Source: Natrinema versiforme
Lineage (GTDB): Archaea; Halobacteriota; Halobacteria; Halobacteriales; Natrialbaceae
Assembly: GCF_005576615.1 (NCBI RefSeq)
Contig: NZ_CP040330.1
Span: forward strand, 992,001-1,056,000
Direction of reading: 5' to 3'
Length of the DNA: 64,000 nt
Of the stretch, positions 49,737 through 64,000 are shown piece by piece. Every line of letters starts with the position of its first letter. The first letter of the stretch is position 1. Made by a program: the position numbers and the translations under genes. The notes under the pieces were generated by a model. It did no database searches, was not told where the DNA came from, and saw nothing but the letters and a program-made list of their open reading frames with translations.

Positions 49737-49946
49737 CTACTCGAGGTAGCCGAGTCCGCGGAGCTGTTCGGTGATCTCCTCGAATTCAGCTTCGGTGAGT
49801 TCGCCTTCCTTCTGGTGTTGGATGACGATGCTGCGCAACAGGAACCGAACGAGGTCGCTCGTACTCTGGAAACTCGTTCCCTCGATGGTGTCCTCGACCC
49901 GGTCCGCGAGGTCCTTCGGGATCGACACCGTGGTATACTCGGTCAT
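49737..49946 (-). CDS. CopG/Arc-type ribbon-helix-helix DNA-binding protein
   Basis: A 69-residue protein: EYTTVSIPKDLADRVEDTIE (beta strand and helix), then STSDLVRFLLRSIVIQHQKE (second helix), and an acidic tail ending RGLGYLE. It is a typical dimeric RHH regulator of haloarchaea. No toxin partner is adjacent. It is divergent from the DUF5789 gene, so it may regulate that gene or itself. Confidence 0.85.
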   Translation of the reverse strand: MTEYTTVSIPKDLADRVEDTIEGTSFQSTSDLVRFLLRSIVIQHQKEGELTEAEFEEITEQLRGLGYLE

Positions 49947-50036
49947 ATCCCATACTCCGTCGCGGGGCCCAAAGGAGTGTCGACAGGCAGCGACCTGCTG
50001 GTCCAGTCGGCTCGCCGCCGACCGTCTCCACAGCCA

Positions 50037-50046
50037 TTTTTATATC
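50037..50046 (+). promoter_or_regulatory. TATA box of the DUF5789 gene
   Basis: TTTTTATATC about 24-33 nt before the ATG at 50070, matching leaderless start spacing. Confidence 0.65.
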
Positions 50047-50526: not shown

Positions 50527-51534
50527 TTACTCGTCGCGCGAGTCTCGAGCGATCCGCTCGAGGCGGCGTCGCTGCTCGCGGTGGAGGGTCACGAGCATGT
50601 CCGAGAGGACGCCGAACATGAGCAGCTGGACGCCGAGGAGAACGGCGGCCGCGGAGGCGAGCGCCATGATCTCGTGGCCCTGCTGGTACTGGATCCACTC
50701 CCAGAGGACGTAGGTCGCGATGAGGCCGCCCGACAGGATGCCGGTCACGCCGAGGCTCCCGAAGTAGAACAGCGGGTTGTTGGTCTTGGCCAGCGAGTAC
50801 AGCGCCAGCAGGATCGTCCCGCCGTCTCTGACCGGGTGGAGATTGGTTTCTGACTCGTCGGGCCGGGCGCTGTAACTGATCGGGACGACCGTCGTCTCGA
50901 CGCCGTGTTTGACACACTCGACGGCGAGTTCGGTCTCGATCGTAAAGCCGTCCGAGTCGAGCGAGAGCCGCTCGAATGAGTCGACGGTAAACGCCCGATA
51001 GCCCGACAGGATGTCCTCGTAGTTCGCGCCGTGGACGAACCCGAACGCGCGGTTTATCATCCGATTGCCGAAGCCGTTCAGGGCGCGCATCGCGTCGTCG
51101 TCCATATCGGCGAAGCGGTTGCCGATCACGTGCTCGTACCCCCGCGAAAGCGGCTCAAGCATCTTGTCGGCGTCGGCCGGATCGTAGGTGCCGTCGCCGT
51201 CGACCATCAACACGTACGGGACCGTGATGTACTCGAGGGCCTCGCGAACGGCTTGGCCCTTTCCGTCGCCGGACTGGACCAGCACCTCGGCACCGTGTTC
51301 GCGGGCGATCTCGCGCGTGTCGTCGCTCGAGTCGCCGTCGACGATGACGACGTTCGTGTACCCGTGCTCGTAGAAGCCCTCGATCACGTCGGCGATCGTC
51401 GCCGCTTCGTCGAGCGTTGGGATGAGTATGCAAACGTCGTCGGACGAGATCTCGCGGGCGTCCTCGGTCACGGCGACCGTCCCCGCGCCGTCCGAAAGGA
51501 TACTCGAGCCCGCACGAACCGCGTCATCTTCCAT
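50527..51534 (-). CDS. aglJ: AglJ-like dolichyl-phosphate glycosyltransferase (GT2)
   Basis: A 335-residue GT2 protein. ILIPTLDEAATIADVIEGFY and VVIVDGDSSDDTREIAREHG start the GT-A fold, LMVDGDGTYDPADADKML carries the DxD metal motif, and two transmembrane segments end the chain (FGSLGVTGILSGGLIATYVL; ALASAAAVLLGVQLLMFGV). It resembles AglJ, which adds the first hexose to dolichol phosphate for S-layer N-glycosylation. The TM tail and DxD are intact. It is the last of the minus-strand aglM-aglJ pair, 141 nt from aglM. Confidence 0.87.
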   Translation of the reverse strand: MEDDAVRAGSSILSDGAGTVAVTEDAREISSDDVCILIPTLDEAATIADVIEGFYEHGYTNVVIVDGDSSDDTREIAREHGAEVLVQSGDGKGQAVREALEYITVPYVLMVDGDGTYDPADADKMLEPLSRGYEHVIGNRFADMDDDAMRALNGFGNRMINRAFGFVHGANYEDILSGYRAFTVDSFERLSLDSDGFTIETELAVECVKHGVETTVVPISYSARPDESETNLHPVRDGGTILLALYSLAKTNNPLFYFGSLGVTGILSGGLIATYVLWEWIQYQQGHEIMALASAAAVLLGVQLLMFGVLSDMLVTLHREQRRRLERIARDSRDE

Positions 51535-51675: not shown

Positions 51676-52965
51676 TTACCAAGTCAGTCCCTCGTAGACC
51701 TCGAGGGCGTCTTCGTCGATGTCGATCCGCCGACCGTCGACCACGACCGACCGGGCCATCCCCTCGAAGGAGAGGTCGTCGAACTCGGGCCAGTCGGTCG
51801 CGACGACGGCACCGTCCGCCCCCTCGAGTGCGCCCTCGGCCGACTCGGCGTACTCGATTTCGGGGTAATCGGGCCGGACGTTCTCGATCGCGACCGGATC
51901 ATACGCGACGACGTCCGCGCCGCGATCCGCGAGGTACTCGATCACGTCCAGCGCGCGGGACTTCCGAACGTCGTCGGTGCCGGGCTTGAACGACAGTCCG
52001 AGGACCGCGATTCGGGCCCCCTCGAGGTCGACGTGATCCGCGAGCAGGCCGACGAGCCGTCGCGGCTGCTCGTCGTTGACCGCGACCGCGGCGTCGAGCA
52101 GTTCGGGGTCGTACCCCTGCTCGCGAGCGCCGGCCCGCAGGGCGTTGACATCCTTCGGGAAACAGGAGCCGCCCCAGCCGAGGCCCGAGCGCATGAACCG
52201 TTCCGAGATCCGATCGTCGAGGCCGACCGCCTCGAGCACCTCGTAGGCGTCCGCGTCGTACTCCCTGGCGATGTTGCCCAGTTCGTTGACCAGCGAGACT
52301 TTCGACGCGAGGAAGGCGTTGTTCGCGTACTTGATGAGTTCGGCCTCGCGGATGTCCGTCTCGACGAGGTCCGTCTCCTCCCGTTCGAGGATCGGCGCGT
52401 ACAGTTCGCGCAGCGTCGCGGCGGCTCCCTCGCTCGCCGTTCCCAAGACCACCTTGTCCGGCTCGAGGAAGTCCCCGACCGCGGTCCCCATCCGGAGGAA
52501 CTCGGGGTTCATCGCGATCTCGATGCCGTCCCCGAGCGGGGTTCCCGATTCGGACTCGAGGATCGGGCCGACGACGTCTTCGGTGGTGCCAGGCAGGACC
52601 GTGCTCTTGACGACCACGAGGTGGTCGTCATCCTTGTCCGCTAGCGCGCGGCCAAGCGACTCCGCGCCGGCCCGCATGATCGCGAGGTCGAGGCTCCCGT
52701 CGTCGGACTGGGGCGTGGGCAGACAGAGGAAGGTCACGTCCGTATCGCGGACATCGTCGTACTCGGTCGTCGCGCGGAGGGTCGTACCGGCGTGCTCGGC
52801 GATTCGCTCCGCGAGGCCCGACTCGTGGATCGGGGCCTCGCCGGCGTTTATCGCGTCGACGATGTCCTCGTTGATCTCGATGTTGATCACGTCGTGGCCG
52901 AGGTCCGCGAGGCAGGCGGCGACGGTGGTGCCGACGTAGCCGCTGCCGACGATGGAGACGTTCAT
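51676..52965 (-). CDS. aglM: UDP-glucose 6-dehydrogenase family enzyme (AglM-like)
   Basis: A 429-residue dehydrogenase. The N-terminal NAD-binding motif is SIVGSGYVGTTVAACLAD, the catalytic Cys is in GWGGSCFPKDVNALR, and the catalytic Lys is near AELIKYANNAFLASK. It oxidises UDP-glucose (or a related UDP-sugar) to the uronic acid. In haloarchaea AglM supplies UDP-glucuronate for the S-layer glycan; the adjacent aglJ-like and later aglG-like genes support this. UDP-GlcNAc/ManNAc dehydrogenases share the fold, so the sugar is partly inferred. Confidence 0.88.
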   Translation of the reverse strand: MNVSIVGSGYVGTTVAACLADLGHDVINIEINEDIVDAINAGEAPIHESGLAERIAEHAGTTLRATTEYDDVRDTDVTFLCLPTPQSDDGSLDLAIMRAGAESLGRALADKDDDHLVVVKSTVLPGTTEDVVGPILESESGTPLGDGIEIAMNPEFLRMGTAVGDFLEPDKVVLGTASEGAAATLRELYAPILEREETDLVETDIREAELIKYANNAFLASKVSLVNELGNIAREYDADAYEVLEAVGLDDRISERFMRSGLGWGGSCFPKDVNALRAGAREQGYDPELLDAAVAVNDEQPRRLVGLLADHVDLEGARIAVLGLSFKPGTDDVRKSRALDVIEYLADRGADVVAYDPVAIENVRPDYPEIEYAESAEGALEGADGAVVATDWPEFDDLSFEGMARSVVVDGRRIDIDEDALEVYEGLTW

Positions 52966-54301: not shown

Positions 54302-55036
54302 TTACTCGGTCGGCACCGCGACTTCAGCGTCACCCAGTCGCTCCTCGGCGCGGTCCTTATCGTCCGGGTAGCCCACGTCGATGCGCCAGCCGTCCATCCG
54401 GATCGCGTCGATGGTCCGCCCGGACTGGATGAGGAGATCGATCGCGTCCGGCAGTTCGTACTCGCCTCGAGCCGAGGGCTGGACGAGGTGACACGCGTGG
54501 AAAATCTCCGGCGTGAACGTGTAGAAGCCGGTCATGACGAGATTGGACGGCGGATCGTCGGGTTTCTCCATCACTTCGACGATCTCCCCGTACTCGTTCG
54601 TATCGAGGACGCCGTACCTCGAGGCCTCCTCGTAAGGGACCTCCTCCACGAGGAACGCGGCGTCGGCCCGTTCCTCCTGCTGGCGGTTGATCACGTCGCC
54701 GAGGTTCGCCCGGAAGACGTTGTCTCCGAGCATGAGCATGAAGTCGTCGTCGATGTGCGGTTCCGCCTGCAGGATCGCGTGGGCGAGTCCGAGCTGCTCG
54801 CGCTGATGGGCGTAGGTGATCGGAACGCCCTCGTATTCGTCGCCGTAGCGTTCGATTATCTTCTCTTTCATGTAGCCGACGACGAGGACGAATTCGGTCG
54901 CACCGACCTCGATGAGGTTGTCCATAACGTCCTCGATGAGGGGTTTCCCGTCGACCTCGACGAGGACCTTCGGCTTGTCTTCGGTAAGCGGCCGGAGGCG
55001 AGTTCCCTTTCCCGCGGCCAGTACGACTGCTTGCAT
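54302..55036 (-). CDS. aglF: Sugar-1-phosphate nucleotidylyltransferase (AglF-like)
   Basis: A 244-residue nucleotidyltransferase. The activation motif is VLAAGKGTRLRPLTEDKPKV, substrate binding in LMLGDNVFRANLGD, and EKPDDPPSNLVMTGFYTF follows. It makes UDP- or dTDP-glucose from glucose-1-P. AglF in Haloferax makes UDP-glucose for the S-layer glycan, and aglM nearby would oxidise that product. The start ATG is 31-40 nt from AT-rich TATA candidates (55055-55075). Confidence 0.88.
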   Translation of the reverse strand: MQAVVLAAGKGTRLRPLTEDKPKVLVEVDGKPLIEDVMDNLIEVGATEFVLVVGYMKEKIIERYGDEYEGVPITYAHQREQLGLAHAILQAEPHIDDDFMLMLGDNVFRANLGDVINRQQEERADAAFLVEEVPYEEASRYGVLDTNEYGEIVEVMEKPDDPPSNLVMTGFYTFTPEIFHACHLVQPSARGEYELPDAIDLLIQSGRTIDAIRMDGWRIDVGYPDDKDRAEERLGDAEVAVPTE

Positions 55037-55197: not shown

Positions 55198-56610
55198 CTA
55201 CTGAATGTATCCGAGATCGTTCAGTCGCTGTTTGATCGAGTCGGATGCGTGTTGTGTGCCGGAAACGACATCGGCCGGCTGGAGAGCCGAAACGGTTTCC
55301 TCTATCAGAGGTCGGTCGGCGCCACCGACGACGGATCGCTCTCGAGCGTTCTGGATCAGGACGCACGCATCCCGATCGCCATTGCGTGCATCCTTTCGAA
55401 CGGCCCCATCTTGGGTGCTGTACACCGCGTGCCACGGGCCGAAGTACGGCTCTCGGTCGTCCGGTTCAAGCGGAAGTTCATCACCTGGTTCCTGCATCCG
55501 ATACGTCGAAGTGACGACGGGGTCGTCGCTCTCGAACGTTCGAGGATGGCCCTCAACGTAGGCGCGCACGACATCGGGGAACCGGGTTAGCGAAACAGGA
55601 GCATCGATAGTCAACCCACTATTGTCGTCGGGTGTACTAACGAGAAGTGGAACGTGTGTTAGCTCCTCGTTGATCCCGAAATTATGATCGATAAGCCGTA
55701 TCGGTGTTCCGAGCTCGCACGGTTCTCCGAATCCCTCCCCGTGATCGGACGTAATAACGAGTACGGTTTCAGAAAGGTCGTTGCGGGCCTTCAGCGCCTC
55801 AATCAATTCGCCGACGATCGCATCGGCCTGCCGTATGCACCCATCGTACAGTGACTCGAATGCTCCGAGTTGCCACCACGGACGATTGCCCAAAAACTCA
55901 CGTAACAACGGCTCACTGATCCCCTCGTGGAGACTTCGGAGTTCCGAACTGCTCCATCGATCATACCTCGTCGCCGGAAGGTATGGATAGTGGGCGTCCA
56001 TGAGGTTTATACACGCCGCCCACGGGTCACTCCGGTCGTCGGTCCACTCGAGAAACGATTCGATATGCTGGCGGCTCTCGTCGTGATCAACGGTCGGTCC
56101 CCGAATTTGTTCGATCTGGTCGCTAGCACCGTTGTATAACGATTTGATCGGGTGATCACTGCTGAGCGCGGCGGTAAGATACTCCGTTTTTCCGGTCGCG
56201 CCGCTCAGTTCATCGGGTGACAACGCATTAGGAAACGGGTACGTCGAAGACGACGGTCCATCGACATCGTCGAACGGCCGTGCAAGCGAGGACGCTTCGG
56301 CGACGACAGTGTTGGACGTAAAGAGACCAGTTTGATACCCTTCCTCGGAAAGTTCCTCCCAGATGGTCGTTCCCCGCTTGAGTTCCGCCGTGTGATCTAC
56401 GGCACGGTGTTCAGCAACCTCGTATCCAGTGAAGAGGCTCGCGTGGCTCGCGATGCTATGAATGCCCGGTGAGCGCGCCTGCGTGTACACCGTCGCCTCT
56501 GACGCAAACTCCTCCAGATTCGGTGTCGTCTCGTTGTAATAGCCGTGAAGGCTCGTATTCGCCGCTCGAACGCTATCGAGAACGACGAGGAGAACGTTAG
56601 GCGATGTCAT
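55198..56610 (-). CDS. Sulfatase-fold (alkaline phosphatase superfamily) enzyme, copy 1
   Basis: A 470-residue soluble enzyme. NVLLVVLDSVRA holds the first metal Asp (residue 12), and VITSDHGEGFGE the second Asp/His pair (about 289-290). The usual sulfatase C-x-P-x-R is replaced by ARSPGIHSIASHASLFTG (about residues 45-61), where Ser47 or Ser52 may be the nucleophile. It ends with a short LGYI element (SIKQRLNDLGYIQ). It may add or remove phosphate, sulfate or a phospho-group on the surface glycan. It is paralogous to the gene at 58256-59677, and the flippase lies between them. Confidence 0.85.
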   Translation of the reverse strand: MTSPNVLLVVLDSVRAANTSLHGYYNETTPNLEEFASEATVYTQARSPGIHSIASHASLFTGYEVAEHRAVDHTAELKRGTTIWEELSEEGYQTGLFTSNTVVAEASSLARPFDDVDGPSSSTYPFPNALSPDELSGATGKTEYLTAALSSDHPIKSLYNGASDQIEQIRGPTVDHDESRQHIESFLEWTDDRSDPWAACINLMDAHYPYLPATRYDRWSSSELRSLHEGISEPLLREFLGNRPWWQLGAFESLYDGCIRQADAIVGELIEALKARNDLSETVLVITSDHGEGFGEPCELGTPIRLIDHNFGINEELTHVPLLVSTPDDNSGLTIDAPVSLTRFPDVVRAYVEGHPRTFESDDPVVTSTYRMQEPGDELPLEPDDREPYFGPWHAVYSTQDGAVRKDARNGDRDACVLIQNARERSVVGGADRPLIEETVSALQPADVVSGTQHASDSIKQRLNDLGYIQ

Positions 56611-56701
56611 ATACTATCTTCGTCGACAGCCTGATAAAATCCTCTCGGTAACAGGGTGCCACATTATCTCCAGTTCGGATGCATATATCCGATCGCACAC
56701 G

Positions 56702-58153
56702 TCAGGTCCAATCCAGCGGGAGATCGATTGGAAGGTTCTGATCGACAGTCAGCCGGAAGTGAGCGGAGATGACGATGAGGGTCGTGAAGTAGACGACCGA
56801 GCCGAGTCCAACGAGCGCTAGCACGACGGCGATATTACTGCTGAGATTTACGTATTCTGCCTCGAACCAGAGACCAGCGTAGACGAAGAGGCCCATGATT
56901 CCTGCCGCGATCCACTGTCGTCCGATCTCTCCGACGGGAACGGAGAATTCGACCAGTGACGAGAGAGAAATGTAGGCGATGACGAGACTAATGGCGACTG
57001 ACGAAGCAGTCGCCGCCGCCGCACCGACAACACCGAAGATCGGGATCAAACTGACGTTTAGAAGGACGTTCGCCCCGATGAATACAGCGTTGATTTTGAA
57101 GGACACGTCGGGCCTGTCGATCGCGTCGAGCGTCATCGTGAACTGTCGCTGGTACCCCTGAATCAACGTCGCGACGATGAGAACTGAGAGAACGGTCGCT
57201 CCTTGCGTGAACTCCTCGCCGTACACTCGGAGTAATTGCTCACCGAGCAGCGTTCCTCCGACGAGCCCCGGAATGAGGATCAACCCACCGTACGTGAGCG
57301 CAGCCTCGAATAGTTCCGCGACCGATTCTGAGTCGTCGTCCGCCGAGAGCGAACTCATCTCGGGGAACAGCGTTTCGCTCAGTGAGCCGCCGAACAGTAT
57401 CAGAAACACCGCAATGTTCCAAGCCGCCGTGTAGATTCCGACGAGCGACGACGACACGAAGAACCCGAGGACGGCGACGTCAACCCAGTTGAACGCGCGC
57501 GAACGGATCTCGCCGAGCCACGAGTACTCCGCATAAGAGACGATCCGGCGGTAGTGTTCCACCGTCGGGAGCGAGATCGAGTCGAAATGACGAATCGCTA
57601 TCCAGAGCCCGAGTACGGAGACGAGTGCGTACCCAGCAGTATACCCGATGAAGAGACCGGTTATCTGGAACCCAGCGAGAATGGCTCCGATTTGGACGAG
57701 ACTCCGTGTTCCGGTCCGAATCGGATTGAAGATACCCGAGATGTGGACGAGGTGTTGTCCGCTCAGTATCGAGTTTACGGATGACTGAACGAGATTCACG
57801 AATAAGAACAGTACCACGGCTGCCGCGGCAGGGTATCCGATGTAGTCGTTTATCTGTTCGCGAAAGAGCAGGGTGAGTACGGAGACGATCAGGAAGAGGG
57901 CGAGGACGATCGTCCCGCCGGCGATCGTGTAGGCCGCTTCGTCCTCGCCCTCGCTGACGCGTTTGTTGATCGCACTCGGAACGCCCATTTTCACTGCGAT
58001 TCCGAGCCAAGAGACCGTCGAGAGCACGAGATAATAGATACCGAGCGTCTCGGAACCGAGAAATCGAGCGATAAATATCGTCGCGACGAACCCAAGCATG
58101 GATGCCAAAAACCGGGAGGTGAAATGAACGATCGATGTCTGGCCCAGTCGCAT
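56702..58153 (-). CDS. Polysaccharide/oligosaccharide flippase
   Basis: A 483-residue membrane protein with about 12-14 hydrophobic segments, as in MATE/Wzx-type exporters. It opens MRLGQTSIVHFTSRFLASML and has GIAVKMGVPSAINKRVSEGE, WLGEIRSRAFNWVDVAVLGF and LIPIFGVVGAAAATASSVAI. It probably flips lipid-linked sugars across the membrane, as AglR is thought to do in Haloferax. It lies between two paralogous sulfatase-fold genes on the same strand, in AT-richer DNA than the rest of the window. Confidence 0.85.
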   Translation of the reverse strand: MRLGQTSIVHFTSRFLASMLGFVATIFIARFLGSETLGIYYLVLSTVSWLGIAVKMGVPSAINKRVSEGEDEAAYTIAGGTIVLALFLIVSVLTLLFREQINDYIGYPAAAAVVLFLFVNLVQSSVNSILSGQHLVHISGIFNPIRTGTRSLVQIGAILAGFQITGLFIGYTAGYALVSVLGLWIAIRHFDSISLPTVEHYRRIVSYAEYSWLGEIRSRAFNWVDVAVLGFFVSSSLVGIYTAAWNIAVFLILFGGSLSETLFPEMSSLSADDDSESVAELFEAALTYGGLILIPGLVGGTLLGEQLLRVYGEEFTQGATVLSVLIVATLIQGYQRQFTMTLDAIDRPDVSFKINAVFIGANVLLNVSLIPIFGVVGAAAATASSVAISLVIAYISLSSLVEFSVPVGEIGRQWIAAGIMGLFVYAGLWFEAEYVNLSSNIAVVLALVGLGSVVYFTTLIVISAHFRLTVDQNLPIDLPLDWT

Positions 58154-58255
58154 ACGCCTACCGGTGGGCGGGAAGGCAATAAGGCCTCTTTTTCGATACT
58201 AACAGCGAAGTACTCGAGACATAATTCACGCGTTGTTCTCGGTTGCAGCCGTTAT

Positions 58256-59677
58256 TTACGCCTTGTATCCGAGTTCGTGTAATCGCTGCTCGACCTCGGC
58301 GTCGATATCTCCGTCGGCTTCCGTCACGTCGACTCGGTCTAAGGTTTCAACGGACGATTCGACAAGTTCCCGGTCCGCGAGTCCTCTCGCCGCTCGCTGA
58401 TCGTGTCTCGTCGATTCGAATCGAACTTGGTCCTCACGACGAATGGCGTCAACTACCGTTCTGTCACCTTGTTCGTGGCAGACTGCATGCCACGGCCCGA
58501 AGTACGGTTCCCGCTCGCTCTCCGGCAACGGTAACTCCGTTGCTGGCTCCTCGAGTCGGTACGAACTCGTGATCGTATAGCCGTCGTCCGGAACGAAACT
58601 CCCTCTCTCACCGTCGATGACGCTTTTCACGACTGACGGAAATCGAGTTAACGACGCGGGTTCGGTTACGGTTTCGCCTGCCGTCTGTCCGGGATACTTG
58701 ACCACCAAGGGAACGTGAGCGAGTTCGTCACCGATCCCCCAACTGTGGTCGATCAGACGTACTGCGTCGTTCACGACGCTGTACTCTCCGAACCCCTCGC
58801 CGTGGTCGCTCGTCACGACAACTAAGGTGTCCTCGAGTTCGTTCGCCGCCTCGAGTCTGTCGAGCAATTCGGCGAGGTACGCGTCGGCTTGCCTGATGCA
58901 GCCGTCGTACAGACTCGTACACGCTTCGAGTTCCCAGAACGGCCGGTCGCCGAGGTATTGGGTCGTCAGCGGCCCGCCCATTGCCTCTCGATGGAGGTCT
59001 TGGAGGACATCGCCGCCCCACCGGTCGTACTTCTCCTGTGGCAAGTACGGATAATGAGCGTCCATGAGATTGAGACACGCCGCCCACGGGCCGTCGTTCG
59101 ACTCTCGCCACTCGAGGAACTCTTTGACGTACTCTCCCCCGTGTTCTCTCTCCGGATCGTGTGCCGCGCTCGAATTGCCGAACTCCCTCGCTAACCCGTT
59201 CGCGATGGCTTTGAGTGGTGACTCGCTCTCGAGACACGCTCGAACGTACTCGATGTAACTCGGATTTCCCGAAACGTGTTCCGGACCGAGCGCATCCGGA
59301 AATACTAGTTCATCACGTTTCGGTCCCACAACGTGGTTAAAGAACGTCGAAAGGTTCGAAGATTCAGAAACGATCGCGTTTGGTGTGAACAGTCCAGTCC
59401 GGTACCCGTCGTCAGCTAGCTCTTCCCAAATCGTATGTCCGGACGCTAAATTCGCACTATGCGACGTAGCCCGATGCTCGGCCACGTGATAGCCGGTGAA
59501 AATACTCACGTGACTCGAGATGCTGTGAATACCGGGTGATTTCGCAGTTGTATAGGTCGTCGATCGGGTTGCAAACTCGTCCAGACGTGGTGTTGTCTGT
59601 CGCGGATAGCCAAGATGGCCCACGTTTTGGGCACGAACACTGTCGAGAATAACGAGAAGAACGTTCGGCTGATCCAT
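58256..59677 (-). CDS. Sulfatase-fold (alkaline phosphatase superfamily) enzyme, copy 2
   Basis: A 473-residue paralogue of the 55.2-kb enzyme. It opens MDQPNVLLVILDSVRAQNVG and has the same region AKSPGIHSISSHVSIFTGYH, AACLNLMDAHYPYLPQEKYD, the distinctive LYDGCIRQADAYLAELLDRL, and VVTSDHGEGFGEYSVV. It ends LHELGYKA. Start at ATG 59677 because earlier codons in frame lie in AT-rich non-coding DNA. Substrate unknown; work on the same glycan as its paralogue is inferred from the flippase between them. Confidence 0.87.
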   Translation of the reverse strand: MDQPNVLLVILDSVRAQNVGHLGYPRQTTPRLDEFATRSTTYTTAKSPGIHSISSHVSIFTGYHVAEHRATSHSANLASGHTIWEELADDGYRTGLFTPNAIVSESSNLSTFFNHVVGPKRDELVFPDALGPEHVSGNPSYIEYVRACLESESPLKAIANGLAREFGNSSAAHDPEREHGGEYVKEFLEWRESNDGPWAACLNLMDAHYPYLPQEKYDRWGGDVLQDLHREAMGGPLTTQYLGDRPFWELEACTSLYDGCIRQADAYLAELLDRLEAANELEDTLVVVTSDHGEGFGEYSVVNDAVRLIDHSWGIGDELAHVPLVVKYPGQTAGETVTEPASLTRFPSVVKSVIDGERGSFVPDDGYTITSSYRLEEPATELPLPESEREPYFGPWHAVCHEQGDRTVVDAIRREDQVRFESTRHDQRAARGLADRELVESSVETLDRVDVTEADGDIDAEVEQRLHELGYKA

Positions 59678-59824
59678 ACGTATGGGTTCGGACGGGCATA
59701 TTTGTATACTTCGGTAGGTGGAATATACACCTGCCATATTATACACGAGGAAATACTAAAGAAATTAGAACCCTATCTGACGCATTCCGTTAGTGATAAA
59801 CAGGTGCAAATCACTTCACCACTA
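59678..59824. other. AT-rich intergenic region
   Basis: About 150 bases of low-GC sequence (for example ATATTTGTATACTTCGG and ATTATACACGAGGAAATACT) with no supported gene. It is the divergent region between sulfatase copy 2 and the decayed third sulfatase. Confidence 0.6.
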
Positions 59825-60822
59825 ATGACAGTTAGCTTTACAAAGTTGTTCTCTCAGAGTATATCGAATTTCCGGGAGACGGATAAACCGCTGTTGTCAC
59901 GTGTTTTCCGACCGATCTATTATATCTACGTCGCGTTCCTTCTCAGTATCACGAAGTAGTATCCGTACGGAACCAACATTTTCGAACGTGATTGGGATGC
60001 GCTCATCATTCTCGACGCCTGTCGTGTTGATGCATTACGGGAGGTCGCCGACGAGTACGAGTTCCTGACCGTCGACGACTCGATAACCTCAGTCGGGAGT
60101 ACGTCTTTCGAATGGATGAACCATACCTTTGACGCCGAATATCGGGACGAGATTCAGGATACCGCATACGTGACCGGAAACGGGTATACGGAGCGGGTAC
60201 TCGATAACGGCGGCGATACGGGACACGCAGCGATGCCGTTCGGACCATCCGAGTACGATGTCGTCAGTCCCGAGGACTTCGGTTATCTCGAGGAACTCTG
60301 GCGGGTAGAGTTTGACGACTCTGCTGAGTGGATGGTCGGGAGTGAGGATGGCACTCGTGTTCACCCACGCTATACGACCGACCGTGCAATTGCGGCAGGC
60401 CGAAATCGTAGCACTGACCGGCTGGTCGTCCACTACATGTATCCACACGATCCCTATCCACTGGCCGATGATCCCGACCTACAGGAACCGTTTGATGCGC
60501 TCAGAGCGGGACGCGTCGATCGCGACGAGACGTGGGACGAATACCTACAGAACCTTCGGTTCGTGCTCGATGAAGTCGAAGTTTTGCTCGACAACGTCGA
60601 TGCTGACAATGTCGTGATCACTGCAGACCACGGAGAAGCATTCGGGGAGTATAGCTTCTACCGACACGTTATCGGTTGTCCACTGCCGTGTATGCGAACC
60701 GTCCCGTGGGCCGAGACAACCGCTGCGGATACCGGGAATATGAACCTCGTGCTCCAGCACCACAGTCGGCTACCGAAACGGCGACCGCCGAAGAGCGATT
60801 AGAAGATTTGGGTTATTTGTAG
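59825..60822 (+). pseudogene. Decayed sulfatase-fold enzyme, third type
   Basis: One open frame (ATG 59825) reads MTVSFTKLFSQSISNFRETD, then SRVFRPIYYIYVAFLLSITK, where a TAG at 59957-59959 stops it. Directly after, the same frame resumes YPYGTNIFERDWDALIILDA and continues through VVITADHGEAFGEYSFYRHV to VPWAETTAADT. Near 60730 the frame slips by one base: the product would read on to a stop at 60802, but the next frame gives EYEPRAPAPQSATETA and ends EERLEDLGYL at 60822. A nonsense codon and a frameshift together mark a pseudogene. It belongs to a different sulfatase subgroup (YPYGTN-type opening) from copies 1 and 2. Confidence 0.8.
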
Positions 60823-60837
60823 CGTTACCGGTACGGT

Positions 60838-62037
60838 CTACGTTCTTATGGTCGTCTGGAGTCTTTCAGCAAGCGTGTCGGTATCAACACGAACATCAAC
60901 GCCGACCTGCTCACACTGGACGTACCGGTATTCGTGATCCATGCTCGCGGCCAGTCGGTCAAACGTAGCCATCGTCTTGTCTCCAAACAATTCAATCACC
61001 GTGAGATCGTCGCCGTATAGGATGTTCGTCAGCCCTGCACCGTGGGGTGCAACGACGACGTCAGCACGACGGAATAGGTCGATCTGTTCACGGACGCTCA
61101 ACTCGCCGAGGAGATACGTATTGACGTTGTACTCGTCTAACACACGTTGAACCGCGTCTCTATTCGAGACGCGTCGTACCGTTGCATCGCCGCGTGCGAT
61201 GTAGATCCGGTTACTCCGTTCCTCATCGGAACCGCCATCGCGTACAGTGCCATCACGCATCCGATTACGCATCCAGAAACACTCCTCGGGGATGGGGTCG
61301 GGAAACGTTGGAACGACCAACGAATTCGCCTTCGCGACCCCACCGTCAAAACTGGCGATCTCTCCGGTATAATCGATGATATCGAGCGATTCCTTCATCC
61401 AGCTTGAACAGTCAGCTGGGACAAGCAGCGTCGGATAAATCCCCGTTTCGGAGCCATATCGCTCGAGGAGGCGAACGCGCAAGAGACACTCTACGGTCCA
61501 ATGGTAGTAGTTGTTCCACGGCGGGACGGCAAACGCAACTGTGTCGAATCGCCGATCCGGTTCTCCATCGCCACGGAGTGCATCGAGAGTTCGCCGAGCA
61601 CCGTTCTCCGATATCGACCGTGCGATAGTAACACCGGTTCGTCGCTGTGTGAGCGGCGGCGTTCCGACGGTGTCGGCGATGACGGTTCCCTCCGCAGTGA
61701 GACCAGGACCGACGGGACCGAGTAGCATCGCATCCGGGAACTCGCAAACGAATCTATTTCCGGGTTCGTACTGCTCAGGCGTGTCGAGTCCCCGGAATCC
61801 GGTTGGTCCTTTGAGTCGCATCGGTTCGTTGTATTCTTCGTATTCGAGACATTCCGACCGATTCCGTACGTCGTCGCGGTATAGTATATCAACGCGCTTT
61901 TCGAGAAGATGCTTGTATACGGTTCGATAGAGAAGAAGATCATCGACCACAAGATCACGCCCCTCGGAGATGAGTTCCGCTGCTCCGTCTTGCCGAACCT
62001 TACGGACCGCACGACCCGGGACGTTACTGAGATCCAT
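60838..62037 (-). CDS. Glycosyltransferase family 61 (DUF563)
   Basis: A 399-residue GT61-type enzyme. The family core is NNYYHWTVECLLRVRLLERY (HW motif), followed by RNRIYIARGDATVRR-type (NRIYIARGDATVRRVSNRDA) and VVVAPHGAGLTNILYGD, VIELFGDKTM. It transfers a sugar, often xylose or GlcNAc in eukaryotic relatives; the donor here is unknown. No membrane segment is seen. It starts at ATG 62037 (MDLSNVPGRAVRKVR); an earlier in-frame start is possible. It is convergent with the decayed sulfatase and divergent from the GT2 at 62096. Confidence 0.87.
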   Translation of the reverse strand: MDLSNVPGRAVRKVRQDGAAELISEGRDLVVDDLLLYRTVYKHLLEKRVDILYRDDVRNRSECLEYEEYNEPMRLKGPTGFRGLDTPEQYEPGNRFVCEFPDAMLLGPVGPGLTAEGTVIADTVGTPPLTQRRTGVTIARSISENGARRTLDALRGDGEPDRRFDTVAFAVPPWNNYYHWTVECLLRVRLLERYGSETGIYPTLLVPADCSSWMKESLDIIDYTGEIASFDGGVAKANSLVVPTFPDPIPEECFWMRNRMRDGTVRDGGSDEERSNRIYIARGDATVRRVSNRDAVQRVLDEYNVNTYLLGELSVREQIDLFRRADVVVAPHGAGLTNILYGDDLTVIELFGDKTMATFDRLAASMDHEYRYVQCEQVGVDVRVDTDTLAERLQTTIRT

Positions 62038-62095
62038 CTTCGTTGAGATTTCTATCAGGAACGCTTTTAACAGCACCGGGATATAGCCGTCTTGT

Positions 62096-62998
62096 ATGCC
62101 GTCGTCTCCTCTCGTTTCGTTTATTATCCCAGTTTATAACGATCCGAACGGCCTCCGTGATACGTTGGAATCAGTAACAAGTCAGCGAGATGCTCCGCCG
62201 TTCGAAGTCCTCGTTGTCGACAACGACTCGACGGATGAAACGCCGGCGATTATCGATGCGTTCGAATCGGAATACCCCGACGTGGTGTCCGGATATACCG
62301 AAACGGATGTCCAGAGTTCGTACGCGGCAAGAAACACTGGTCTCGAACGCGCGACCGGAGACATCATCGCATTCTTAGACGCGGACGAAACCGTCGGCAA
62401 GAACTGGCTCGAAACAGCACTCGAAGCGAGGAACGAACAAGATGCCGCGTACCTCGGATGTGCCGTTAAGCTGACTCTCGAGTCGGAGACGCTCGTCGGT
62501 CGGTACAATTCTCGAACCGGATTCCCGGTCCAAGCGTATCTGCAGGAAGAGAATTACGCGCCGACGTGTGCGCTCCTCGTCCGGCGCGAAGTCTTCGAGG
62601 ATGTCGGTGCGTTCGATAGTCGGCTGATTTCGGGTGGCGACATCGAGTTCGGACACCGAGTCGCAGCCGCGGATTACGTGCAGGGATATGCAGAAGATGC
62701 CACTGTCAGCCATCCTGCACGGACATCCCTTGAATCGATCGCGAAGAAGAACTTCCGAGTCGGTCGCGGGTTCTGTCAGAAACAGCGATACTACCCGGAT
62801 CGATATGGCCGACCGGGAATACCACCGACACCGACTGGTTCCGGGAGTAGCGACCATGGAGACGAACCGGACTCCATCGCAACGCGCGTAGCGTTCACGA
62901 TACTTTCGGTAGCGATGCTAGCGTGTCGCGGATTGGGCTACTACTACGAGTTTCTGTTCGGCACAGAACAGATGGCTACGCATTCGCTTTCTCGATGA
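62096..62998 (+). CDS. Glycosyltransferase family 2
   Basis: A 300-residue GT2 protein. VSFIIPVYNDPNGLRDTLES opens the GT-A fold, LVVDNDSTDETPAII and IIAFLDADETVGKNWLETAL (DAD metal motif) follow, and EVFEDVGAFDSRLISGGDIE is the acceptor side. A C-terminal hydrophobic stretch (RVAFTILSVAMLACRGLGYY) may anchor it. Its last 23 nt overlap the end of the convergent GT2 at 62976. It likely extends the lipid-linked glycan. Confidence 0.87.
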   Translation: MPSSPLVSFIIPVYNDPNGLRDTLESVTSQRDAPPFEVLVVDNDSTDETPAIIDAFESEYPDVVSGYTETDVQSSYAARNTGLERATGDIIAFLDADETVGKNWLETALEARNEQDAAYLGCAVKLTLESETLVGRYNSRTGFPVQAYLQEENYAPTCALLVRREVFEDVGAFDSRLISGGDIEFGHRVAAADYVQGYAEDATVSHPARTSLESIAKKNFRVGRGFCQKQRYYPDRYGRPGIPPTPTGSGSSDHGDEPDSIATRVAFTILSVAMLACRGLGYYYEFLFGTEQMATHSLSR

Positions 62999-63914
62999 GA
63001 TTCGGTGTTAGAATCGCGTATAGGTAACCGAGCCCAACAGCACCCGTGAAGAGAACAATCGATAGCAACTGCTTCGCTCCGAATGTTGACGGTGATCGAA
63101 CCAAACTACGAATTCGCCTCGGAATGAAGTGTGTTAGCAATTGCTTCAGATAGTCTCCCTTATCATCGGGGGCGTTTGGATAGAGGAGATCCATTATCCG
63201 TTTCGAGTACCCTTGCCAGAACGATCGGAACACGAGCCACCGAAGGTCACCGCGATAGTCGAACAACTTGTGGTGGACAACCGCGTCTTCGGTGAAAATC
63301 ATCCCTTTGCCGTATCGCTCTAATAACCGAATTCCGACCGGTGCCTCGTGGGCCTGTAAGTGCTGGTCTCCTTTCCTGCCTGTATTGGGATCATAGCCGC
63401 CGACCGTCAAGAATACTGGACGACGGTAAGAGATGTTCGATCCGTACGTGTTTCGGACTTCTTCTTTATCTTCAGCGAACCCAGGCTCTACACAGCCGAC
63501 GAGCCAATAGAACTCCTCCGGAAAGAAGTCGGGTTTCTCCGTCACCCACTCAGGTACGACGTCGCCACCAACTGCGATGGCGTCAGTTTCGTCGTAGACT
63601 CGAGCCAGTTCGGCCACCCAATCGTTCTCGGCGACGGCGTCGTCGTCGATAAACGCGACCACGTCTCCGGTCGCGATTTCGGCACCCCGCGTTCGACTGT
63701 ACGAGATCCCGTGATTCTCGTCGTTACAGTGGAGGACGACGTCGTCGAGACCACCGTAGTCCTCTCGGACGCGTTCGAAGACCGGTTCGTTGCCGTCAAC
63801 GACGATCACGACCTCGAGCGGGTCGTACGTCTGTGCGAGGACGCTATCGACGCACTCCGAAAAGACATCGTAGCGTTCCATCGCGTAGGTACAGATAACG
63901 ACGGAGACCTTCAT
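62976..63914 (-). CDS. AglG-like glucuronosyltransferase (GT2)
   Basis: A 312-residue GT2 protein. KVSVVICTYAMERYDVFSEC opens the fold; VVAFIDDDAVAENDWVAELA carries the DDD metal motif; YGSNISYRRPVFLTVGGYDP and EAPVGIRLLERYGKGMIFTE match the AglE/AglG/AglI group. Two hydrophobic stretches near the end (LSIVLFTGAVGLGYLYAILT) may bind the membrane. The best match by memory is glucosyl-dolichyl-phosphate glucuronosyltransferase AglG; with aglM (uronic acid supply) this is coherent. ATG 63914 is used; the longer frame is a shadow. Confidence 0.85.
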   Translation of the reverse strand: MKVSVVICTYAMERYDVFSECVDSVLAQTYDPLEVVIVVDGNEPVFERVREDYGGLDDVVLHCNDENHGISYSRTRGAEIATGDVVAFIDDDAVAENDWVAELARVYDETDAIAVGGDVVPEWVTEKPDFFPEEFYWLVGCVEPGFAEDKEEVRNTYGSNISYRRPVFLTVGGYDPNTGRKGDQHLQAHEAPVGIRLLERYGKGMIFTEDAVVHHKLFDYRGDLRWLVFRSFWQGYSKRIMDLLYPNAPDDKGDYLKQLLTHFIPRRIRSLVRSPSTFGAKQLLSIVLFTGAVGLGYLYAILTPNLIEKANA

Positions 63915-64000
63915 CGGAGACGGATTTCGGTGAGGCCTGAATAAGCTTTTTCGTTCACACGAGTCCGTTGGCGCGACGATCACGGATCCCTGAGAGTCCG

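Follow-up and report, generated by a model that had tools for sequence, protein, structure and literature searches.

The window analysed here, 64 000 nt of Natrinema versiforme (positions 992001–1056000 of the 3.75-Mb contig C2), carries an N-glycosylation locus in which two genes, sulfA and sulfB, encode paralogous sulfatase-fold proteins around a flippase gene. Gene coordinates are window positions unless prefixed C2 or with a locus number (L); numbers with a G designate genomes. The two proteins are probably cytosolic sulfotransferases which, relying on a serine at the catalytic position (Ser52), would modify the dolichol phosphate (DolP)-linked N-glycan before flipping, while a third gene beside them would be a dead Agl30-type sulfotransferase. 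A likely function is thereby proposed for a subfamily of proteins that are annotated as ‘sulfatases’ and encoded in N-glycosylation loci of haloarchaea; the automatic annotation would assign them the opposite reaction. Homology, locus, active-site residues, the absence of membrane segments and gene decay were established directly; the transferase activity, its substrate, the order of steps, a covalent Ser intermediate and the donor are what we infer.

Both sulfA and sulfB are intact PF00884 proteins, 48–50% identical to each other, which share the motifs SPGIHSIxSHxS and LYDGCIRQADA. A first-pass annotation of this region had singled out these motifs, the position of the two genes around a flippase (PF01943) and the replacement of the usual sulfatase Cys-x-Pro-x-Arg, all of which were borne out here. 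Ser52 occupies the place that the formylglycine Cys has in sulfatases, and His56 that of their Arg; in the alignment with 4upl the two fall on its Cys and its Arg, respectively. These two residues, together with Asp12, His207, Asp289, His290, His309 and His319, are invariant in all 26 aligned family members and, as judged by column comparison, identical across sulfA, sulfB and the sulfotransferase Agl31 described below. Formylglycine sulfatase identity, which requires a Cys, or a Ser that can be converted, together with the Arg of the C-x-[PA]-x-R site, was ruled out by the replacement of both site residues. The fold itself is nevertheless that of S1 sulfatases: the AlphaFold2 model of sulfA (mean predicted local distance difference test score 89.1, predicted template modelling score 0.88) gave full-length matches in the PDB to 6hr5 (Z 33.1, root mean square deviation 2.7, 320 aligned residues), 6hhm (Z 31.0) and 5g2u (Z 30.0), with sulfatase matches at Z 30 to 33 over 320 to 368 residues. 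Matches to LtaP, YejM and EptC were observed at Z about 28–30. Two of these structures, 6hhm and 5g2u, are also the DALI best matches given for Halobacterium salinarum proteins (PMC11980604).

The sulfA sequence begins directly with the first strand of the fold (residues 5–11 of the model). Neither sulfA nor sulfB carries a hydrophobic N-terminal segment, an RR signal or a membrane helix, with maximal 19-residue means of 0.89 and 0.91, respectively, compared to 1.36 for Agl30, and both are predicted to be soluble and cytosolic. Assignment to the LtaS/EptA-type extracytoplasmic transferases, which combine an N-terminal membrane domain with a catalytic domain on the outside, was rejected for lack of any membrane segment. 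A PAPS (3′-phosphoadenosine 5′-phosphosulfate)-dependent P-loop sulfotransferase was also ruled out, since no such domain appeared in a Pfam scan of sulfA and sulfB, which matched PF01663 and DUF229 in addition to PF00884.

The closest characterised proteins were reported in 2025, when two proteins with the sulfatase fold encoded in the aglB cluster of Hbt. salinarum, Agl30 (VNG1056C) and Agl31 (VNG1057C), were shown to be sulfotransferases (PMC11980604). The membrane protein Agl30 and the soluble protein Agl31 sulfate the N-linked tetrasaccharide, as shown by gene deletion together with mass spectrometry, and also act as sulfotransferases after their transfer to Haloferax volcanii; Agl31 was cytosolic by fractionation and sulfation occurs at the DolP stage (PMC11980604). 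Their respective targets are iduronic acid (IdoA) for Agl30 and the terminal glucuronic acid for Agl31. In our collection the Hbt. salinarum genome is G148, recognised by a bacteriorhodopsin 100% identical to the query over residues 3–262. Its 18-kb contig C17 carries in order an AglG-like gene, a gene for a 326-aa protein, one for a 459-aa soluble protein and, farther on, one for a 475-aa protein. We take the three proteins as probable VNG1056C, VNG1057C and VNG1063H, names which rest on fit rather than on a label: the gene order, a hydrophobic stretch at residues 21–39 of the 326-aa protein matching the named helix, and top identities from 75% downward all agree with PMC11980604.

The tree of sulfatase-fold proteins proposed in the first-pass annotation was built with FastTree from 116 sequences, including fragments and a few duplicates. 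In this tree the family of sulfA and sulfB forms a group of 68 tips (support 0.837), which is united with the Agl31 clade in a node of 77 tips with a support of 1.0. SulfA is grouped with a copy from Natronoglomus (0.957) and sulfB, in a subclade of its own, with copies from Natrinema and Halorubrum (1.0); the two are therefore old paralogues and not the product of a fresh duplication. Besides the joined clade, sulfA and sulfB have in common with Agl31 the Ser-x-x-Ser-His-x-Ser site, the metal ligands, the lack of a membrane segment, the aglB cluster setting and a C-terminal LGY tail. The same genome holds a second sulfatase-fold cluster with a flippase (L009:4350-12482, C2 about 1.076–1.085 Mb), which contains its own Agl31-clade gene (L009:11028-12482, 38% identity to Agl31).

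The N-glycosylation locus extends from 50.5 to 64 kb and over the next 3 kb, and is anchored by AglB. Its genes are in the order AglJ-AglM-AglF-sulfA-flippase-sulfB-(broken Agl30 type)-GT61-GT2-AglG-AglB, as follows:

50527..51534, minus strand: AglJ, first N-glycan glycosyltransferase (TIGR04182, 449.9 bits, cut-off 325)
51676..52965, minus strand: AglM, UDP-glucose 6-dehydrogenase (NF041297, 711.7 bits, cut-off 670)
54302..55036, minus strand: AglF, UTP-glucose-1-phosphate uridylyltransferase (NF041313, 431.3 bits, cut-off 400)
55198..56610, minus strand: sulfA, sulfatase-fold protein of 470 aa with Ser52/His56 and an LGY tail, predicted cytosolic sulfotransferase (PF00884, 106 bits; AlphaFold2; tree)
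56702..58153, minus strand: flippase, polysaccharide transporter type (PF01943, 70 bits)
58256..59680, minus strand: sulfB, sulfA paralogue, predicted cytosolic sulfotransferase (PF00884, 107.7 bits; tree)
59825..60822, plus strand: decayed Agl30-type gene (Agl30 match, alignment and frames)
60838..62076, minus strand: GT61 family glycosyltransferase (PF04577, 66.3 bits)
62096..62998, plus strand: GT2 family glycosyltransferase (PF00535, 103.2 bits)
62976..63983, minus strand: AglG, glucuronosyltransferase (NF041394, 521.8 bits, cut-off 440)
L008:63-3014, just beyond the window end: AglB (translation and position)

From sulfA to AglG only glycan genes are present. The G+C content at third codon positions is 0.59–0.72 in these genes (55198–63983), compared to 0.84–0.90 in AglJ, AglM, AglF and AglB. 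This contrast gives the middle of the locus the appearance of a cassette that has been exchanged while the ends were conserved.

The third gene had been described as unrelated to the pair and as interrupted by an amber codon and a frameshift. The interruptions were found as described, while the supposed lack of relationship was not: judging from its sequence, the gene is an Agl30-type member of the same superfamily that is no longer intact. The Agl30 query from Hbt. salinarum matches 59831-60733 (C2:1051831-1052733) with 224 bits and 42–43% identity over Agl30 residues 3–299 (43% in the comparison with the membrane-bound enzyme), a match beyond chance in which both the helix at the N-terminus and the catalytic residues are preserved. 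One TAG lies within the match, at 59957-59959; the frame shift occurs beyond the catalytic part, so that the C-terminal tail EERLEDLGYL (ending at 60822) is in another frame and, in contrast to Agl30, no intact product is made. In a 19-sequence alignment including the window copy, the Agl30 residues Asp61, His192, His197, Asp264, His265 and His277 are invariant, and with its catalytic residues kept the decay looks recent. Thus, one sulfation would have been lost in this strain, in agreement with the first-pass annotation, which had suggested the loss of one step. Agl30-type genes are present in 89 of the 149 haloarchaeal genomes searched (expect value, E, 1e-20). Two broken copies were also observed among the 31 genes of the sulfA/sulfB family itself (32 places listed at E 1e-40, two of which belong to one split gene): the copy of G015 is split between frames (L042:9244-10676) and that of G092 carries four stops (L061:9247-10484). 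Loss of genes of the sulfA/sulfB type therefore recurs.

We further examined whether the family is linked to flippases and N-glycosylation genes elsewhere. At E 1e-40 it occurs in 26 of the 149 relative genomes. From a named set of 79 loci kept, taken from genome_contigs, L121-L177 were analysed, except L176, which was dropped as having no member above 250 bits; the haloarchaeal locus L181 lies outside this range and was not counted. Members scoring at least 550 bits form the core subfamily (40 genes in 36 loci) and those between 250 and 550 bits an outer subclade (20 loci). A flippase, detected with a profile that was iterated on these same loci, lies within 8 kb at 25 of the 36 core loci and within 100 bp at 12, compared to a chance expectation of about 3% (7 PF01943 genes in 4.67 Mb, hand calculation). 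Among the core loci that extend for 5 kb or more to either side, it is present at 18/26. AglB or AglG was found at 22/36 core loci. For the outer subclade the corresponding numbers are 0/20 and 1/20. Homologues scattered without such links, which would have spoken against the first-pass annotation, thus exist in the outer subclade but not as a feature of the core. The flanking arrangement itself is not constant: among the five two-copy loci (the window, L125, L126, L127 and L147), the flippase lies between the copies in the window only, and in the other four both copies are on the same side of it. The iterated Agl30 profile pulled in other sulfatase-fold proteins and was left unused for Agl30 neighbour counts.

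From these observations the following mechanism can be proposed. SulfA and sulfB would sulfate two different sugars of the dolichol-phosphate-linked N-glycan, in each case most likely a uronic acid. The adjoining flippase would then turn the glycan outward and AglB would transfer it to protein. We place this modification on the cytosolic face, before flipping, because sulfA and sulfB have no membrane segments, Agl31 is soluble and sulfation takes place at the DolP stage (PMC11980604). In outline, a modification of the lipid-linked glycan had already been suggested in the first-pass annotation, and the AglJ-to-AglB locus, the flippase and Agl neighbours and the Agl30/Agl31 precedent support it. 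At the active site, Ser52 and a metal site formed by Asp12, Asp289 and His290, with His207, His309 and His319, would receive a sulfuryl group from the donor before transferring it to the hydroxyl of a sugar, a process that can be likened to phosphoryl transfer by LtaS/EptA-type enzymes. Ser52 is the presumed sulfuryl acceptor because it occupies the position taken by formylglycine in sulfatases and, in LtaS/EptA, by Thr. The third gene would formerly have encoded a membrane-anchored enzyme of the Agl30 type. A PF06662 search for an iduronate epimerase led nowhere; it has no bearing on whether IdoA occurs in this strain, since Agl32 is structurally unlike GlcE (PMC13308652).

Several observations weigh against this interpretation. 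SulfA and sulfB lie outside the Agl31 clade, in a separate sister subfamily only 24–26% identical to Agl31; 11 of the 36 core loci have no flippase within 8 kb, although some are cut by contig ends; and VNG1063H, a sulfatase-fold protein of the same Hbt. salinarum cluster, is without a detectable role in N-glycan sulfation (PMC11980604). The last point would equally fit enzymes that, as sulfotransferases or transferases of a related kind, serve a different product (glycolipids or exopolysaccharide, for example) and are merely located in the agl locus. At least nine sulfatase-fold genes in the genome and the second sulfatase/flippase cluster (C2:1.076-1.085 Mb, L009) point in the same direction, and haloarchaea do have sulfated glycolipids. 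However, AglB or AglG accompanies most of the core loci and the window locus contains nothing but glycan genes from sulfA to AglG, and we regard this explanation as unlikely. Transfer of a phosphate-containing group (phosphate, phosphoglycerol or phosphoethanolamine) to the lipid-linked glycan on the cytosolic side, in the manner of LtaS/EptA, is also rather improbable, though a shade less so. The LtaS/LtaP, EptA and YejM enzymes carry out nucleophile-and-metal transfer chemistry on envelope glycans; sulfA has the fold of LtaP, YejM and EptC, and weak sequence matches to EptA-type families were obtained. In addition, the glycan of Halorubrum sp. PV6 is given only as ‘sulphated/phosphorylated’ (PMC6137143). 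Nevertheless, Agl31, which represents the nearest clade with a characterised member, is a sulfotransferase, and so is Agl30, the type to which the adjoining broken gene belongs. Enzymes of the LtaS/EptA type, moreover, possess membrane helices at the N-terminus and work on the outer side of the membrane through a Thr nucleophile, unlike sulfA and sulfB, which have a Ser and no membrane segments.

The top solved-structure matches, sulfatases and phosphonate monoester hydrolases, would by themselves suggest hydrolases trimming sulfate or phosphate esters from glycans, for degradation or editing. We consider this very unlikely, given the replacement of Cys and Arg throughout the family (Ser52/His56 in 26/26), the absence of an export signal and the biosynthetic nature of the locus. 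Least probable of all is an arrangement in which the two enzymes act on opposite faces of the membrane, separated by the flippase, as put forward in the first-pass annotation. It was drawn from gene order, which is not conserved (a sandwich in one of five two-copy loci), and conflicts with the absence of signals, helices or anchors in sulfA and sulfB and with the cytosolic location of Agl31 (PMC11980604).

If sulfA and sulfB are sulfotransferases as proposed, the question of the sulfate donor is raised. Among the 149 haloarchaeal genomes, family searches, which an unrelated enzyme would escape, detected ATP sulfurylase (PF01747, E 1e-10) in four and the PF13469 sulfotransferase (E 1e-8) in two. 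CysD (TIGR02039, E 1e-20) was found in none, while it was detected in Escherichia coli and three other control genomes. Adenosine 5′-phosphosulfate (APS) kinase (PF01583) exceeded 100 bits in 11 of the 149; raw matches occurred in 145, most of them to P-loops at 22–30 bits. The only genomes with both ATP sulfurylase and APS kinase are G003 and G100, which are also the two that carry PF13469. In the window genome and in G148 (Hbt. salinarum), no ATP sulfurylase, APS kinase or PF13469 was observed above threshold (the genome-wide searches did not include PF00685 and PF03567), and their PF01583 matches of 22.8 and 24.9 bits cover the first 50 positions only. The donor question is thereby sharpened: the Hbt. 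salinarum glycan is sulfated, yet G148 lacks the PAPS-making genes searched for. Literature searches for the sulfuryl donor led nowhere, and PMC11980604 contains neither ‘PAPS’ nor ‘donor’. Counting against a blanket absence of sulfate assimilation, an almost complete assimilatory sulfate pathway has been reported in two Natronomonas (PMC9895928).

Since the glycan of Hbt. salinarum is sulfated although no PAPS route can be recognised in its genome, a donor other than PAPS is plausible, and the donor for sulfatase-fold sulfation may not be PAPS. A general extension, which we advance tentatively and hold at somewhat below even chances, is that haloarchaeal glycan sulfation is PAPS-free, carried out by Ser-nucleophile sulfatase-fold enzymes (Agl30, Agl31 and the sulfA/sulfB subfamily) with a donor that does not come from ATP sulfurylase and APS kinase. 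This would represent a second, unrelated route to sulfated glycans, using a fold hitherto classed under sulfate removal. The P-loop sulfotransferases (PF13469/PF00685) would catalyse the same type of reaction, sulfate onto sugar, but their domain is unmatched in sulfA and sulfB and PAPS genes were not found in the genome by the searches above. In G003, ATP sulfurylase and APS kinase adjoin a family member, which could be taken to indicate use of PAPS. This was rejected: a P-loop sulfotransferase is encoded in the same locus, and the two enzymes may therefore serve it. Separately, APS-kinase-domain proteins of about 300 aa were observed (L110-L119) in nine genomes without ATP sulfurylase.

The C-terminal tail L-x-x-L-G-Y is widespread among these proteins. 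Counting sulfatase-fold open reading frames (ORFs) recognised by the iterated Agl30 profile together with a second profile (A1), it was present in 89 of the 99 haloarchaeal ORFs of L121-L177 and in 13/35 of L178-L199, mainly bacterial loci plus one haloarchaeal (L181). A Cys-type sulfatase of the window genome (C2:518775-520322) is without it, in line with the biosynthetic role proposed for sulfA and sulfB. An ERLxxLGY tail was also found on two APS kinases, each adjoining ATP sulfurylase (L054:11806-12537 and L109:8053-8709, in G003 and G100), while the 11 other APS-kinase-like ORFs examined lack it. Its presence on unrelated folds suggests a common partner and hints at a docking peptide. Finally, a distinct protein with a similar ending is encoded by a short ORF at 49740-50039 (minus strand), which ends in GELTEAEFEEITEQLRGLGYLE and is found near AglJ in several loci.

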